NCBI RefSeq assembly: GCF_019797865.1 | Contig: NZ_CP081869.1 | Coordinates: forward strand, 2,108,001-2,172,000 | Direction of reading: 5' to 3' | DNA length: 64,000 nucleotides | Source: Chenggangzhangella methanolivorans | Lineage (GTDB): Bacteria; Pseudomonadota; Alphaproteobacteria; Rhizobiales; Methylopilaceae | Shown here: piece after piece, positions 49,400-56,617 of the stretch | How the letters are laid out: every line of letters starts with the position of its first letter | How positions within the stretch are numbered: the first letter of the stretch is position 1 | Notes under the pieces: model-generated | Databases searched by the model: none | Told to the model about the DNA's origin: nothing | What the model saw: the letters and a program-made list of their open reading frames with translations, nothing else | Translations under genes and position numbers: made by a program

Positions 49400-50344
49400 T
49401 CAAAGGTCGAGCGTGACGGAGACCCGCGCGCGCGACACGCAGGGCGCGATCCTGTCCTGCCGGTCGGCTGTCGAGATGACGGCGTCGCGGTGGATCACCA
49501 CGCCCTCCGTATAGCCGCAGACGCAGGAGCCGCAGACGCCGAGCTCGCAGGAGGACGGCATGATCTTGCCGTGCTCGCGCAGCACGTCGAGCAGGGAACG
49601 GTCGGCCGGCACGTGCAGCGTCGCGCCCGAGGAGGCGAGCGTCGCGTCGAACGGCTCCGGCTTGAAGTTCTCGTCGACCGGCGCCTGGAACGCCTCGGCG
49701 TGGATCGCGGTCTCGGGCCAGCCAAGCGCCAGCGCCGCGTCGCGCACGGCCTCGTAAAGCCGATGCGGGCCGCAGACATAGAGGGCAGCCCCTTGCGAAT
49801 AGGGCCCGACCGACGCCGCATCGAAGCGGGCGCCCTCGCCCGAGAACCATGTCGACAGCCGGTCGCCGCAGGCCTCGGACAGTTCGGTGAGCAGCGGGGC
49901 CTCGGCGGCCGTCCGAGCGCAGAAATGGACCGCGATTTCGGCTCCATCGGCCCTGAGCCGCCGCGCCATGGCGAGACCGGGCGTCACGCCGATGCCGCCG
50001 AGCACGAAGAGGTGGCGGGAGGCGTCGCGGATCGGGAAGTTGTTGCGCGGCGCGGAGACATGGGCGATCGCGCCCTCGACCAGCGCCTCATGCGCCCAGC
50101 GCGAGGCGCCGCGGCCCGCGTCCTCGCGCTTGATCGCGATCTCGTAGGTTCGAAGATCCTGCGGGTCGCCGCAGAGCGAATATTGCCGGATCTTTCCGTC
50201 GGGCAACCTCAGGTCGACATGCGCGCCCGGCTCCCAGGCCGGCAATTTGGGGCGGCTCGGGTGGACGAGCGTCAGATGCAGGACGTCCGCGGTCGCAAGC
50301 CGTGCGGCAGCGACCCGGAGCTTCATGATGATGCGGGCGGTCAT
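49400..50344 (-). CDS. PDR/VanB-type oxidoreductase (flavin reductase with C-terminal 2Fe-2S)
   Basis: A 314-residue electron-transfer protein. The flavin domain has RQYSLCGDP; the NAD domain has VLGGIGVTPGLAM and ALYVCGPHRLYEAV; the C-terminal plant-type ferredoxin has SCELGVCGSCVCG and a last Cys in APCVSR as cluster ligands. It passes electrons from NAD(P)H to an oxygenase such as VanA. No oxygenase gene is adjacent; a MOSC gene lies just upstream with a few bases between, so they are cotranscribed. Confidence 0.87.
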   Translation of the reverse strand: MTARIIMKLRVAAARLATADVLHLTLVHPSRPKLPAWEPGAHVDLRLPDGKIRQYSLCGDPQDLRTYEIAIKREDAGRGASRWAHEALVEGAIAHVSAPRNNFPIRDASRHLFVLGGIGVTPGLAMARRLRADGAEIAVHFCARTAAEAPLLTELSEACGDRLSTWFSGEGARFDAASVGPYSQGAALYVCGPHRLYEAVRDAALALGWPETAIHAEAFQAPVDENFKPEPFDATLASSGATLHVPADRSLLDVLREHGKIMPSSCELGVCGSCVCGYTEGVVIHRDAVISTADRQDRIAPCVSRARVSVTLDL

Positions 50345-50348
50345 GGCG

Positions 50349-50961
50349 TCAGGCGTCGTCCAGCAGTTCGATCTCGTCGCCAGGCCGGATCACGCCGCCG
50401 CGCTCGATCCCGGCGTTGAGGCCGGAGCGGTTGTAGAGCGGCAGATAGACCGGAAGTCCCAGCAGCCTCGAGATACTTGCAGGGGAAGTTGAGAGCCCTC
50501 CCCTCATGATCACCTCGCCGACCCGGAACCGACGGCCGACCAGATGGTTGAGCGGCACGCCGCGGACGGTCAGGTTGCGCCGGTGATCGCCGGGCGCGAG
50601 CGCGATGGAGCCGCCCTGCAGCGGCGGATCGTTGCGCGAGAGCGCGTCGAGAGCCTCCTGCTCGATCAGCGTGACCTCGCGCGCGTCGGGCTTGGGCGAA
50701 TAGGTGCCGGTCCCAAGATAATAGCGGTCGCCCACGATGCCGCGGCCCGCGACGCACTGCGCCTCCTCGAGCTCCTCCATCTCGTAGCTTGCGGCGGGCG
50801 CGACATGATGTTGAGCAGCACGCCCCGAAGCCGGTCGCGCCGCCCGGAACGTTGCGGGCGGCCGAGCCCTGCGCATGCTCGAAGGCCTCGACCATCTTCG
50901 GGCCCGGCTTCTCGGCCATTGCTTCGCCGAGGCCGTCCTGACGTCGTTCGTCGTCTCTCAT
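50349..50961 (-). CDS. MOSC-domain protein (several frameshifts)
   Basis: MOSC domains act in sulfur-carrier or molybdenum-cofactor chemistry, and in YiiM-type detoxification of N-hydroxylated compounds. Pieces in order: AARNVPGGATGFG near the start, then CVAGRGIVGDRYYLGTG, VTLIEQEALDAL, RRNLTVRGVPLNHLVG, RFRVGEVIMRGG, the conserved Cys in ALNFPCKYLEA (other frame) and LPVYLPLYNRSGLNAGIERG. The frame changes near 50810, 50510 and 50465. With the reductase at 49400 it may form a detoxifying pair. Confidence 0.65.
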
Positions 50962-51012
50962 GGGTCGTCTCCCTGGCGGCCGTCACGTCGCCGCTTCGAA
51001 CCGAAAGGCCAT

Positions 51013-51042
51013 GCGGCGCCCGGAGCAAGCTCCGGACGCCGC
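51013..51042 (-). terminator. Hairpin after the MFS transporter gene
   Basis: GCGGCG-c-CCGGAGC, a two-base loop, then GCTCCGG-a-CGCCGC form a 13-pair stem with one mismatch. It lies 24 bases after the MFS stop on the minus strand and before the MOSC gene. It may end or attenuate the MFS transcript. Confidence 0.5.
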
Positions 51043-51065
51043 GTTCGTCCGGCGCGTTCCGCGCC

Positions 51066-52387
51066 TCAGTCGATCTTCTTGCCGGCGGTCTCGGGCGCGG
51101 CCAGCGTCGCGGTCAGCGTGATCAGCGCGAGGACGATCAGGTAGACCGAGATCGGCCAGGTGGCTCCGCTCCAGGCCAGCAGCGCGGCCGCGATCATCGG
51201 GGTGAAGCCCCCGCTCAGCGCCGCGCCCACCTGGAAGCCGAGCGAGGCCCCGGTGTAGCGCAGCCGGGCGTCGAAGAGTTCCGACATCCAGGCGGCGCCG
51301 ATCGCGAACATGACGCCCTGACCGAGGCTCAGCGCGACCGCGACCGTGATGGTGATCGTCGTCGGATCGCCCGTGTTCAGCAGGCTGAACATCGGGAACG
51401 CGAAGCCGATCGAGAACAGGCAGGCGAGGATAAACATCGCGCGCCGCCCGTAGCGGTCGGCGAGCATGCCGAACAGCGGCAGCGTGAAGAGCTCGATGAT
51501 CGCGGCGATCAGGATGCCGTTCAGGATCACGCTGCGCGGCAGGCCGAGCTTGGCGGTCACGTAGGAGATCGAGAACACCGTGACGATGCTGACATAGGCG
51601 ATCTCCGAGACCTTGAGGCCGACCGCCGTTGCGAAGGTCCGCGTGTGCTGGGTCAGGATCTCGACGACCGGCATCTTGGCCACGACGTTCTGCTCCTTCA
51701 CCTTCTTGAACGCGGGCGTCTCGTGCAGGCGCAGGCGGATGAAGAGGCCGACGACCACCAGCAGGGCGCTGGCGAGGAACGGGATGCGCCAGCCCCAGGC
51801 GAGGAGTCGGCCTCCGACATGAGCCCCGTCATCCGGAACGCGCCGATCGAGGCGATGACGCCGAGCGGGTAGCCGAGCTGGACCAGCGCGCCGTAGAGCC
51901 GCGCTTCCTGTCCGGCACGCTCTCCACCACCATCAGCACCGCGCCGCCATTCGCCGCCGATGCCCAGCCCCTGCACGAGGCGCAGCACGACGAGCAGGAT
52001 CGGAGCCCAGACGCCGATCTGGTCGTAGGTCGGCAGACAGCCGATCAGGAAGGTGCCGACGCCCATGATCAGAAGCGTCAGAGACAGCATGGCCTTGCGG
52101 CCGAGCTTGTCGCCGAAATGGCCGAAGATGACGCCGCCGAGCGGGCGCGCGGCGAAGCCCACGGCGTAGGAGCCGAAGGCCGCGATCGTGCCGACCATCG
52201 GGTCGAAGCTCGGGAAGAACAGCTTGTTGAAGACGAGCGCGGCCGCCGTCCCGTAGATCAGGAAGTCGTACCATTCGACGGTCGTGCCGATGACGCTCGA
52301 CCAGACGATCTTGCGCCGTTCCGCGTCCGGCATTTTTTCGCCCGCAGGGACCGCGGCCGCATCGGAGACTTCCACCGCAATTGTCAT
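51066..52387 (-). CDS. MFS transporter of the metabolite:proton symporter type (two to three frameshifts)
   Basis: A transporter of about 440 residues resembling ShiA/ProP/KgtP. It begins MTIAVEVSD and has the signature VIGTTVEWYDFLIYGTAAAL, the inter-helix motif GDKLGRKAML and the second-half copy ADRYGRRAMF. The frame changes near 51930 and near 51800; the pieces rejoin as GLGIGGEW ... YGALVQLGYPLGVIASIG and then VVVGLFIRLRLHETPAF. It should import an organic acid or similar substrate. The gene for a RidA protein lies upstream on the same strand. Confidence 0.75.
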
Positions 52388-52524
52388 CGTGAACCCCCGC
52401 TGTGGGTGTGGAGACGTCGTTCGGACTGCTTCAGGCTCCGGTCCGCGCGAGGCCGCACGGGGCCGGCGCCGCCCGGCCATGCGGCCGGGAGGTCGAAGTC
52501 GCGCATGCGGCGCGGATTGAGGGA

Positions 52525-52878
52525 TCAGGCGTCCGGCAGCGCCGCGACGCAGCCGATCTCGACCCGGATCGCGGGATCGGCGAGACGGCTTTCGACGCAG
52601 GCGCGGGCGGGCGCTGCGCCCGCGGGCGCCCAAGCGTCCCAGACCGTGTTGAAGGCTGCGAAGTCGCCGATCGCGGGAAGCCAGACCATCGCGCTCAGGA
52701 TGCGGCTTTTGTCGGTTCCGGCCTCGGCGAGGATCGCGTCGATCTTGGCGAGCACCTGGGCCGCCTGCTCGACGACGCCGACGCCGAGATCGTCAGGCGC
52801 CTGACCGGAAACGTAGACGAGACCGCCATGGACCGTCGCGGCGGACAGGCGCGGTCCGCTCCCGATGCGCCGGATCAC
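52525..52878 (-). CDS. RidA/YjgF-family enamine deaminase
   Basis: A 117-residue protein with the family patterns GPRLSAATVHGGLVYVSGQA, EQAAQVLAKIDAILAEAG and ARACVESRLADPAIRVEIGC. RidA proteins hydrolyse reactive enamines or imines and often lie in catabolic clusters. Start is the GTG at 52878, with GGAGG six bases before it; longer frames lack support. The Arg that binds the substrate carboxylate (ACVESRLADP) is present. Confidence 0.82.
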   Translation of the reverse strand: MIRRIGSGPRLSAATVHGGLVYVSGQAPDDLGVGVVEQAAQVLAKIDAILAEAGTDKSRILSAMVWLPAIGDFAAFNTVWDAWAPAGAAPARACVESRLADPAIRVEIGCVAALPDA

Positions 52879-53376
52879 GGGAGAGACCTCCGGCCAGCGG
52901 GGAAGGCTCGCGCGGCATGAAGCCTGCTTGATGGAGCCGTTGCGGTCATGGGCGGCCGGGACCGGAACGGGGCCGCCGCAGGAAGAGAACAAGCGCGCCA
53001 TGCTGCTTTTCCTTGGATCCGCGACCCGCCATCGCCGGCCGCCCAAGGATCGAAACATGTTTACTCACAGAAATCAAAAGCCGATTTTTGTGGCAGGGCT
53101 CGCGACCGCTCACCCGTTAGGCGCCACATGCGGCGAAAGCGCCAGGCGTGCTGTGTTTGGCTTCATTCTTGGCGAAACGCCCGATTTCGGCGCCTGAAAT
53201 ATTTGCACCTCGCGGCTGCCGGCTTTATGATTTCCAACATTAAACTCACGCCGAACGGCCATCGGAATGTTTTCGCGCCCCGTCAGCCGCGAGTCGCCAA
53301 ACCGACGCTCATCGGCCATGACGGTCGGAACCGCCTGTCGCGCCGCGTCGGCTGATCTGGGCGAACGGAGGACGCA
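52879..53376. promoter_or_regulatory. Divergent intergenic region of about 500 bases
   Basis: It separates the RidA gene (minus) and the XRE-cupin fusion (plus). The part near 53050-53250 is AT-richer (ATTTTTGTGG, AAATATTTGC, TTTATGATTT) and holds likely promoters for both. No clear palindrome was found. Repression by the XRE protein itself is likely by family habit, but no operator can be named. Confidence 0.4.
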
Positions 53377-54891
53377 GTGCTCGATACGGCGAAGGGCGAT
53401 CGCCTTGGCCCCAATCTGCGCGCGCTGCGTCAGGAGCGGGGGCTCACCCTCGACCGGCTCGCAAGCCTCAGCGATCTCACCCGCGGCTATCTCTCGCTCG
53501 TCGAGCGGGGCCTGAAGACGCCCTCGATCACCGCGCTGATCCGCGTCGCGGGCGCGCTCGAGGTCAACATCGCCCAGCTGTTCGACCTCAACGCGGTGCC
53601 GAACGTCCGATACACGCTGCAGCGGGCGCGCGATCAGCGCGCGCCCAAGCGCGCCTTCGGGCTGACGCCGCTCGCGCCGGGCCGCGCCGCCAAGATGATG
53701 GAGCCTTTCATCATGCGCCCCACGTCGTCGCCGGGCGCGATCGGGGGCCCGCGCTGGGCGCATGGCGGCGAAGAGATGCTGTTCGTGGTCTCCGGACGGA
53801 TCGCCGTGAAGCTCGGCGGCGAGGAACTCGAGCTGGACAAGGGCGACTGCCTCTATTTTTCCGGCGAAGAGCGCCACGAGGTGCGCAGCCTCGGCGACGA
53901 GCAGGCCGAAGTGCTGGTCGTGATCGCGTCCGACCCGGACGCCGGCCTAGCGCCCGGGATGGCGTCGTCGCCGGTCCTTCTGCTCACGTCGCTGTCGGCC
54001 GACGATGAGGCCGCGTGGCTCCACGCCCTCCGGTCGGCGATGCCCGACGAGGTCGTCGAGACGGACCCGGATCGGCCGGCCGTCGAGATCGCGATCGTGG
54101 CCAACCCGCCGCCCGGCGGCCTGCGCGGCCTCCCGGCGCTGAAATGGGTCCACAGCCTCTGGGCCGGCGTCGACGGGCTGCTGAAGGATCCAACCGTTCC
54201 GGATGTGCCCGTCCTGCGCCTCGTCGACCCCACGATGGCGCAGGCCATGGCCGAAACGGTCGCCGCGGCCGTGCTGGGCCTGCATCGCGAGTTCGACGTC
54301 TATGGCGCGCAGCAACGCGCCGGACTCTGGTCCGCGCGCCCGTTCCGGTTCGCGCGCGACCGCGCCGTCACGATCCTCGGGCTCGGCGAGATGGGGCGCG
54401 CCTCCGCCGCCCTGCTCAAGGCTGTCGGCTTCGACGTTCGGGGCTGGAGCCGCTCGGGCGCGACGATCGAGGGCGTGCGGACATTCGCCGGGGCCGACGG
54501 TTTCCTGCAGGCCGTCCGGGGCGCGGAGATCCTCGTCAATCTCCTGCCCCTGACGCCCGAGACCGAGGGCGTGCTCTGCGCGAAGACGTTCGAGGCGCTG
54601 GCCGGGGGCGCCTGCGTCGTGAATTTCGGTCGCGGCGGGCACGTCGCGGAGAGCGATCTCGTCGACGCGCTCAACTCGGGCCGCTTGCGCCACGCCGTGC
54701 TCGACGTGTTCCGAACAGAGCCTCCGCCGGCCGGGCATCCGTTCTGGAGCCATCCCGGCGTGACGATCCTTCCGCACGTCGCAGCGCCGACCGACATGTC
54801 GTCGGCGTCCGCGGTGGTCGCAGTCGCTGTCGCGACATACCGGATGACCGGCGTCGCGCCCGAAGGGCTCGACCGTCGCCGCGGATATTGA
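53377..54891 (+). CDS. XRE-cupin regulator fused to a D-2-hydroxyacid dehydrogenase
   Basis: A 504-residue open frame with three parts. Residues about 10-65 are an XRE helix-turn-helix (LRALRQERGLTLDRLASLSD, then PSITALIRVAGALEV). Residues about 85-190 are a cupin (GGEEMLFVVSGRIAVKLGG, DCLYFSGEERHEV). Residues about 198-500 are a GhrA-like glyoxylate/hydroxypyruvate reductase with ILGLGEMGRASAALLKAVGF for NAD(P), the Arg in VNFGRGGHVAE, and the His in LPHVAAPTD. GTG start. The joint GLAPGMASSPVLLLTS contains a Met where GhrA proteins begin, and the DNA there (GGCCTAG) would give a stop if one C is extra. So it is either a regulator-enzyme fusion or two genes joined by an indel. Confidence 0.72.
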   Translation: MLDTAKGDRLGPNLRALRQERGLTLDRLASLSDLTRGYLSLVERGLKTPSITALIRVAGALEVNIAQLFDLNAVPNVRYTLQRARDQRAPKRAFGLTPLAPGRAAKMMEPFIMRPTSSPGAIGGPRWAHGGEEMLFVVSGRIAVKLGGEELELDKGDCLYFSGEERHEVRSLGDEQAEVLVVIASDPDAGLAPGMASSPVLLLTSLSADDEAAWLHALRSAMPDEVVETDPDRPAVEIAIVANPPPGGLRGLPALKWVHSLWAGVDGLLKDPTVPDVPVLRLVDPTMAQAMAETVAAAVLGLHREFDVYGAQQRAGLWSARPFRFARDRAVTILGLGEMGRASAALLKAVGFDVRGWSRSGATIEGVRTFAGADGFLQAVRGAEILVNLLPLTPETEGVLCAKTFEALAGGACVVNFGRGGHVAESDLVDALNSGRLRHAVLDVFRTEPPPAGHPFWSHPGVTILPHVAAPTDMSSASAVVAVAVATYRMTGVAPEGLDRRRGY

Positions 54892-55335: not shown

Positions 55336-55577
55336 TTGGATCTCCGTTGCATCGCCCGGCGCCTCGCCGCGGCGGGACGTCTTTTCGACTTCCGGATGCT
55401 CAACGCGGCGGTTGAAACCGGAGATTTGTTCCTTCAGAGCCTCACAGTTTTGACGTCCAAGACACAGTCGCGCCGGCGTGACGCCGGCCTCGGGGCGGCT
55501 CGCAAGCGTCGCGGACCTGGGCGCGCCCCTCGATGATCCCGAACGAGACGCTCACCGGAGCGTCTTGTTCGCCAGAG

Positions 55578-56466
55578 TCATCGGACGGGCGCGGCGAGAT
55601 ATGGCGGCTCCCCGAACATCTCGATCAGCAGCTCGGTCAACACCCGCACCTTCCGCGCCGGATGCAGGCCGGGCGGGCGGACGACATACGCCCGCTGCCG
55701 GCGGCGGGTGGCGCGTCATGACCGGCACGAGCGCGCCCGACGTCACATGTTCGTCGGTGAGGCAGTCGGGAAGCGCGGCGACCCCGAGCCCCGCCACCGC
55801 CGCCTCGAGGAGGGCGAGGCCATTGTCCGCCTTGAAACGCCCCCGCGGCTGGACCGCGACGACGGCGTCGCCGTCCGTCACGTTCCAGGGCTCGGTCCCC
55901 TGCATCAGCGCCTCATGGGCGACGAGCTCCTCCGGCGTCTCGGGATCCGTGGGCCGCGATATAGGCCGGGCTCGCGACGAACTTTCCGAACATCGGCCCG
56001 ACGCGCCGCGCCACGAGGTTGGAGTCCTGCAGGTAGCCGACGCGGATGGCGCAATCGAAGCCTTCCCCGATCAGGTCGACGAAGCGGTCGGTGTAGGACG
56101 TGGCGACGTGGAGCTGCGGATGCCGCAGCGCCATGGCCGCGAGCGCCGGGGCGAATGCGTCGGGCCAAAGGAGAGCGGCGCCGAGATCCTTAGCCGGCCG
56201 CGCAGCTCGCCTTCCGGCAGGATCGTCTCCTTCGCGAGATCGATCTCCGCGCAGACCCTGGCGGCGTGATCGCGGAACATCGCCCCCGCCTCGGTCAACG
56301 CCGCTCCGCGGGTAGTCCTCGCGAGCAGTTGAACGCCGAGGTCCTCCTCGAGCCGGGCGAGGCGTCGGCTGACGATCGATTTCGAGACGCCGAGCCGCCG
56401 CGCCGCGGTCGTCACGCCCCCGGCGTCCGCGACTTCGACGAACGTCCTCAGCTCTTCGATGTCCAC
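55578..56466 (-). CDS. LysR-family transcription regulator (at least three frameshifts)
   Basis: Start is the GTG at 56466 (VDIEELRTFVEVADAGGVTT; RRLGVSKSIVSRRLARLEED). The substrate-binding part appears in pieces: GRLRISAPLSFG, then in a second frame DAFAPALAAMALRHPQLHVA and VGPMFGKFVASPAYIAAHG, then in a third NGLALLEAAVAGLGVAALPD, and near the end VRVLTELLIEMFGEPPYL. The shifts fall near 56180, 55930 and 55700. The whole is of normal length, about 296 residues. It is divergent from the isochorismatase gene at 56618, its likely target. Confidence 0.72.
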
Positions 56467-56617
56467 TTTGGCGTTCCCCGTTGCGCAACACAGTTCGTCG
56501 CGAGACAGCGCTACCGCATCGAAACTGGAACTGACAGGGTGACGGTCAAGGCGATGCCGCACCCGGCGCAGTCGTCTCGGCCATCGATCCCAGTCAAATC
56601 AGGAAAAGGGCGCACTC

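Follow-up and report, generated by a model that had tools for sequence, protein, structure and literature searches.

The 504-codon open reading frame at positions 53377 to 54891 of the window (the 64,000-nucleotide stretch of Chenggangzhangella methanolivorans DNA analyzed here) very probably represents two adjacent genes, encoding an XRE-cupin regulator and a GhrA-type dehydrogenase, that have been merged by a small indel, and the fusion most likely does not exist in the genome. The sequence-only reading had proposed either a transcription factor fused to a dehydrogenase or two genes run together by one extra base. The latter is strongly favored, since the regulator is a separate gene in four relatives, GhrA homologues occur without a regulator, no fused homologue was found, and the assembly is rich in errors, with even rpoB and rpoC broken. 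We regard this error load as the deciding context. The likelihoods that we attach to two genes and to a real fusion are judgments and were not computed. The frame is made up of the following features.

53377 to 53950, plus strand: XRE-cupin transcriptional regulator gene, recognized by HTH_3, Cupin_2, and separate homologues; the given frame is open past the TAG at 53948 to 53950.
53927 to 53958, plus strand: joint, where similarity to relatives ends (53927 to 53930), followed by the out-of-frame TAG at 53948 and the ATG at 53959.
53959 to 54891, plus strand: GhrA-type D-2-hydroxyacid dehydrogenase gene (310 amino acids), recognized by Pfam 2-Hacid_dh_C, the homologue in genome G319, and PDB 4zqb.

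As seen in the open reading frame listing and its translation, the frame runs without a stop from a GTG at 53377 to a stop ending at 54891. The presence of an XRE helix-turn-helix, a cupin, and a D-2-hydroxyacid dehydrogenase in a single frame, as had been claimed, was confirmed in the given sequence by Pfam and NCBIfam. Pfam placed HTH_3 (residues 14 to 67), Cupin_2 (119 to 182), and 2-Hacid_dh_C (297 to 469) in this order, and the top NCBIfam match of the whole frame was GhrA (residues 210 to 504, E of 5e-58, below the curated cut-off). These observations are also what favors a true fusion in this strain, in which a real indel would have removed the stop from the frame to give a 504-residue protein whose dehydrogenase is tethered to the regulator or senses for it. 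No stop interrupts the frame in the given sequence, neither domain set appears truncated, and the two halves have similar GC3 values (0.90 and 0.89). Nevertheless, we consider this explanation unlikely in view of the evidence below.

At the joint, the out-of-frame TAG was found as described (53948 to 53950). The ATG said to follow it is present at 53959, corresponding to residue 195 of the frame, but the spacing is 8 bases and not 12. Likewise, the single extra C invoked to explain the fusion is one of two readings: one surplus base immediately upstream suffices, but two missing bases there fit too. Placed in frame, the TAG at 53948 would give a regulator of about 190 codons. By itself the TAG carries little weight, because the off-frame that contains it has 13 stops along the open reading frame and approximately 29% of the codons have one within 6 codons. 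A nearby off-frame stop is thus fairly likely anyway, which counts against the interpretation as two genes, and we rejected the TAG as stand-alone proof of it. The same interpretation is also weakened by the ATG at 53959, which by eye has no clear ribosome-binding site.

The first part of the frame has the architecture of XRE-cupin regulators, an XRE-type helix-turn-helix (HTH_3, E of 3.3e-10) followed by a cupin (Cupin_2, E of 3.4e-15), both above the gathering score. Among the regulator models listed by NCBIfam, PuuR ranked first (E of 1.4e-9), scoring 37.8 bits where the cut-off is 211. Among the matches listed, homologues with 81 to 84% identity were found in 4 of the 12 other genomes of the genus (G005, G007, G009, and G011), and in all four the regulator is a separate gene, with 188 codons in G007, G009, and G011 and 196 in G005. 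The five regulator loci correspond to four distinct genomes, as L021 (Methylopila sp. Yamaguchi, 84%) and L005 are duplicate records, L021 being counted with G011, whose contig C7 is equally long and encodes an identical regulator protein. The regulator in L021 stops with TAG followed by CGC, matching the context of the off-frame TAG in the window, and those in G007 and G009 stop with TGA. This likeness is suggestive, although not proof, of the window TAG being the putative stop of the regulator. More distant regulators (G342, G051, and G261; 58 to 60% identity) gave, among the matches listed, matches limited to residues 1 to 188 or 1 to 189, and two of the three have a stop inside the match. 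In favor of a true fusion, the joint sits where gene ends vary naturally among relatives.

The second part carries the NAD-binding domain 2-Hacid_dh_C (E of 3.1e-42, 144.4 bits against a gathering score of 25.1). Its near full-length match resembles GhrA glyoxylate/hydroxypyruvate reductase and D-2-hydroxyacid dehydrogenases (PDB 4zqb, 6oxn, and 3kbo), with 4zqb matching residues 4 to 310 of the 310-residue part (E of 5.5e-79). However, because it scores 196.6 bits against a cut-off of 403 for the GhrA equivalog NF012013, this predicted enzyme is classed as GhrA-type and not as a GhrA equivalog. Catalysis in D-2-hydroxyacid dehydrogenases depends on Arg, Glu, and His residues. By eye, the translation carries the candidate motifs NFGRGG, FRTEP, and LPHVAAPT. 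The closest homologue among the matches listed, in G319, is 62% identical over residues 196 to 504 and has a candidate ATG one residue off the equivalent of the window ATG; its listed open reading frame is longer (783 amino acids), with an upstream portion that matches no Pfam family. A second homologue (49%, residues 195 to 504) lies in G005, about 242 kb from the regulator on the same contig. In the genome samples, the GhrA-type homologues among the matches listed cover the second part only, mostly starting around residues 190 to 215. When the alignment reaches the first 15 residues, as it does in 58 loci including the window's own, a start codon falls within 4 codons of the window ATG position in 34 of them. 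These start positions are supportive of a separate GhrA start, albeit not decisive, and the ATG kept at the usual GhrA start argues against a true fusion. No second copy showing the true arrangement was found in the window's own genome (G000), in which the other 12 matches are just 24 to 43% identical.

A real fusion might be expected to have homologues with the three domains in one frame, and none was found in the genome samples, the plasmid records, or the GhrA loci, which further argues against a true fusion. The search for such homologues, suggested by the sequence-only reading, was performed with full-length queries against four genome samples: 61 genomes comprising the window's own and relatives, then 397 from the order, 385 from the class, and 398 from the phylum. 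These samples overlap and differ in cut-off (E of 1e-3, 1e-40, 1e-60, and 1e-75). Besides the window's own, no match spanned both parts among the matches listed (61 and 397 genomes) or the best 3 or 4 candidates scored per genome (order, class, and phylum). A fused homologue should rank near the top of such matches, although a very divergent one could escape the search. Among 72,556 plasmid records searched, 2,239 gave a match, and in none of these does the match at a single site reach 80% coverage of the query.

We also examined 170 loci. Among the 137 that bear GhrA, many with just 1.5 kb of flank, which suffices for a fusion but not for the wider neighborhood, a regulator match on the same strand was found at the window's own locus alone. 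At least 120 open in-frame codons lie upstream of GhrA in 27 of the 137, the window's own included. The other 26 loci, at least two of which (L067 and L146) share one contig, were rejected as fusions and their upstream frames taken for stop-poor GC-rich DNA, because none matched any Pfam family. Two further candidates were discarded. The match in G140 spans residues 146 to 504 across a TGA, and locus L122 holds a 316-amino-acid GhrA open reading frame and no regulator; the match in G651 contains three TAA stops, and the upstream open reading frame (137 amino acids) has no regulator match. Both parts (regulator at E of 1e-4, GhrA at E of 1e-20) occur in 38 of 132 loci, the window's own among them. 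In the other 37, found within L033 to L090, a distant XRE-cupin-like gene lies 5 to 6 kb from a GhrA-type gene (for example, L033:281-760 and L033:6001-6888). The regulator-like match there is 27 to 31% identical and on the opposite strand, and a conserved regulator-GhrA neighborhood was rejected. Of these 37 loci, 36 are titled Bradyrhizobium and one Frankia sp. RB7.

The genes on the other side of the regulator are shared with relatives and are listed below.

52525 to 53058, minus strand: RidA-family (Ribonuc_L-PSP) gene, oriented divergently from the regulator, with the same gene order in relatives.
51066 to 52423, minus strand: MFS transporter gene, lying in two frames because of gaps seen only in the window; L021 has it intact (445 amino acids).
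50349 to 50961, minus strand: MOSC-domain gene, disrupted by gaps that only the window has; in L021 it is intact (227 amino acids).
49400 to 50344, minus strand: ferredoxin-type oxidoreductase gene (Fer2 domain), at the far end of the block common to relatives.

Similarity to G005, G007, and G009 (blastn, E of 1e-20) covers only 49400 to 53927-53930, that is, the oxidoreductase, MOSC, MFS, RidA, and regulator genes, and breaks off at the end of the regulator; no GhrA was found at E of 1e-20 in the regulator-bearing loci of these three genomes. There is therefore no orthologous junction for direct comparison. On both sides of this five-gene block (49400 to 53930), the flanks are unshared at E of 1e-20 within the 120 to 140 kb compared; judged by sequence similarity, the block or its flanks look as if relocated. 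It is extremely improbable that both genes are made and that ribosomal frameshifting around the stop adds some fused product. The one point in its favor is the closeness of the TAG and the ATG; the fused reading requires no frameshifting in the given sequence, and the relatives compared, having no GhrA neighbor, do not allow conservation of a slippery site to be assessed. Downstream, a LysR-type regulator gene (55552 to 56562, minus strand) is spread over three open reading frames that occupy two frames, one matching HTH_1 and two matching parts of LysR_substrate.

The genome containing the window consists of one contig of 5,542,510 bases listed as 88.37% complete. In this genome the rpoB model matched as two pieces in two frames, and the rpoC model as five pieces over three frames, three of them with internal stops; in 12 of 12 other genomes, rpoB is one piece and rpoC one open frame. 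These breaks, at G000:C1:271057-279345 (inside L137) and outside the window, are best read as assembly errors, because a working RNA polymerase is essential. Compared with G007 and G005, the rpoB-rpoC region has 15 deletions and 13 insertions unique to this genome, some outside genes. A hand count gave 15 frame-changing indels (10 deletions and 5 insertions) within the coding parts of rpoB and rpoC, which total approximately 8.3 kb. A few of these indels may stem from the alignment where substitutions are dense; five are one-base insertions or two-base deletions and would thus produce the shift required at the joint. Since indel errors extend beyond the window, any split or fused gene in this assembly deserves distrust, and the frame breaks littering it, rpoB and rpoC included, speak against a true fusion. 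Passages of PMC12007338 describe gene-fragmenting indels as well documented in long-read assemblies, and we infer that this assembly was built from long reads because it is a single contig.

The error pattern does not uniformly favor two genes. Compared with three relatives, the MOSC and MFS genes beside the regulator contain seven window-only gaps, which add to the error load in favor of two genes. However, all of them are deletions (five of one base, two of two bases) and none lies inside the regulator, whereas the simplest shift at the joint is a surplus base. Moreover, at the rate of suitable errors (5 in approximately 8.3 kb), only about 0.013 would be predicted across the 21 bases in which an error at the joint must fall. 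An error exactly there was not to be expected beforehand; yet the window contains dozens of junctions, of which this one was chosen for its oddness.

With two separate genes, the regulator would have about 190 residues, and the dehydrogenase would start from the ATG at 53959, eight bases past the regulator stop, its translation perhaps coupled to that of the regulator. The single frame would then result from a small indel immediately ahead of the stop, most likely a sequencing or assembly error and less likely a real recent mutation. The dehydrogenase may reduce a 2-oxoacid, for example glyoxylate or hydroxypyruvate, and the regulator may respond to a small metabolite via its cupin domain. It resembles ErfA, PauR, and PsdR of Pseudomonas and PuuR of E. 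coli in its N-terminal XRE helix-turn-helix, its C-terminal cupin, and its position adjoining metabolic genes, but differs in that the given frame continues into GhrA. Passages of PMC7901475 on the Pseudomonas XRE-cupin regulators state that all those studied bind beside their own gene and that six of seven regulate an adjacent gene, with PauR controlling many other targets as well. As most of these proteins act on neighboring genes, the regulator probably represses the divergent RidA, MFS, MOSC, and oxidoreductase genes, whose order is kept in G005, G007, and G009. The word "dehydrogenase" is absent from the main text of PMC7901475. No such dehydrogenase fusion is apparent from the titles and abstract openings of the papers matched by a literature search, a scope that falls short of proving absence in print.

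MocR regulators consist of a GntR helix-turn-helix fused to an aminotransferase-like domain. The comparison made with them, of a regulator sensing its ligand through an enzyme domain, holds for the concept of a regulator with an enzyme-derived domain; however, the domains are other ones and the window's fusion is very probably not real. For the proposal of such a sensor, the open frame itself is the one thing that speaks. A strain-specific single protein joining an XRE-cupin repressor to an active GhrA-type dehydrogenase, in which substrate or NAD(P)H binding could alter DNA binding, is a shade less probable still than the fusion as such. Overall, these results call for caution, as one-contig assemblies with many residual indel errors create both convincing multidomain proteins and broken genes, a problem that a quick inspection of rpoB and rpoC reveals. 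If true, the fusion would give an enzyme-linked one-component regulator an unusual architecture.
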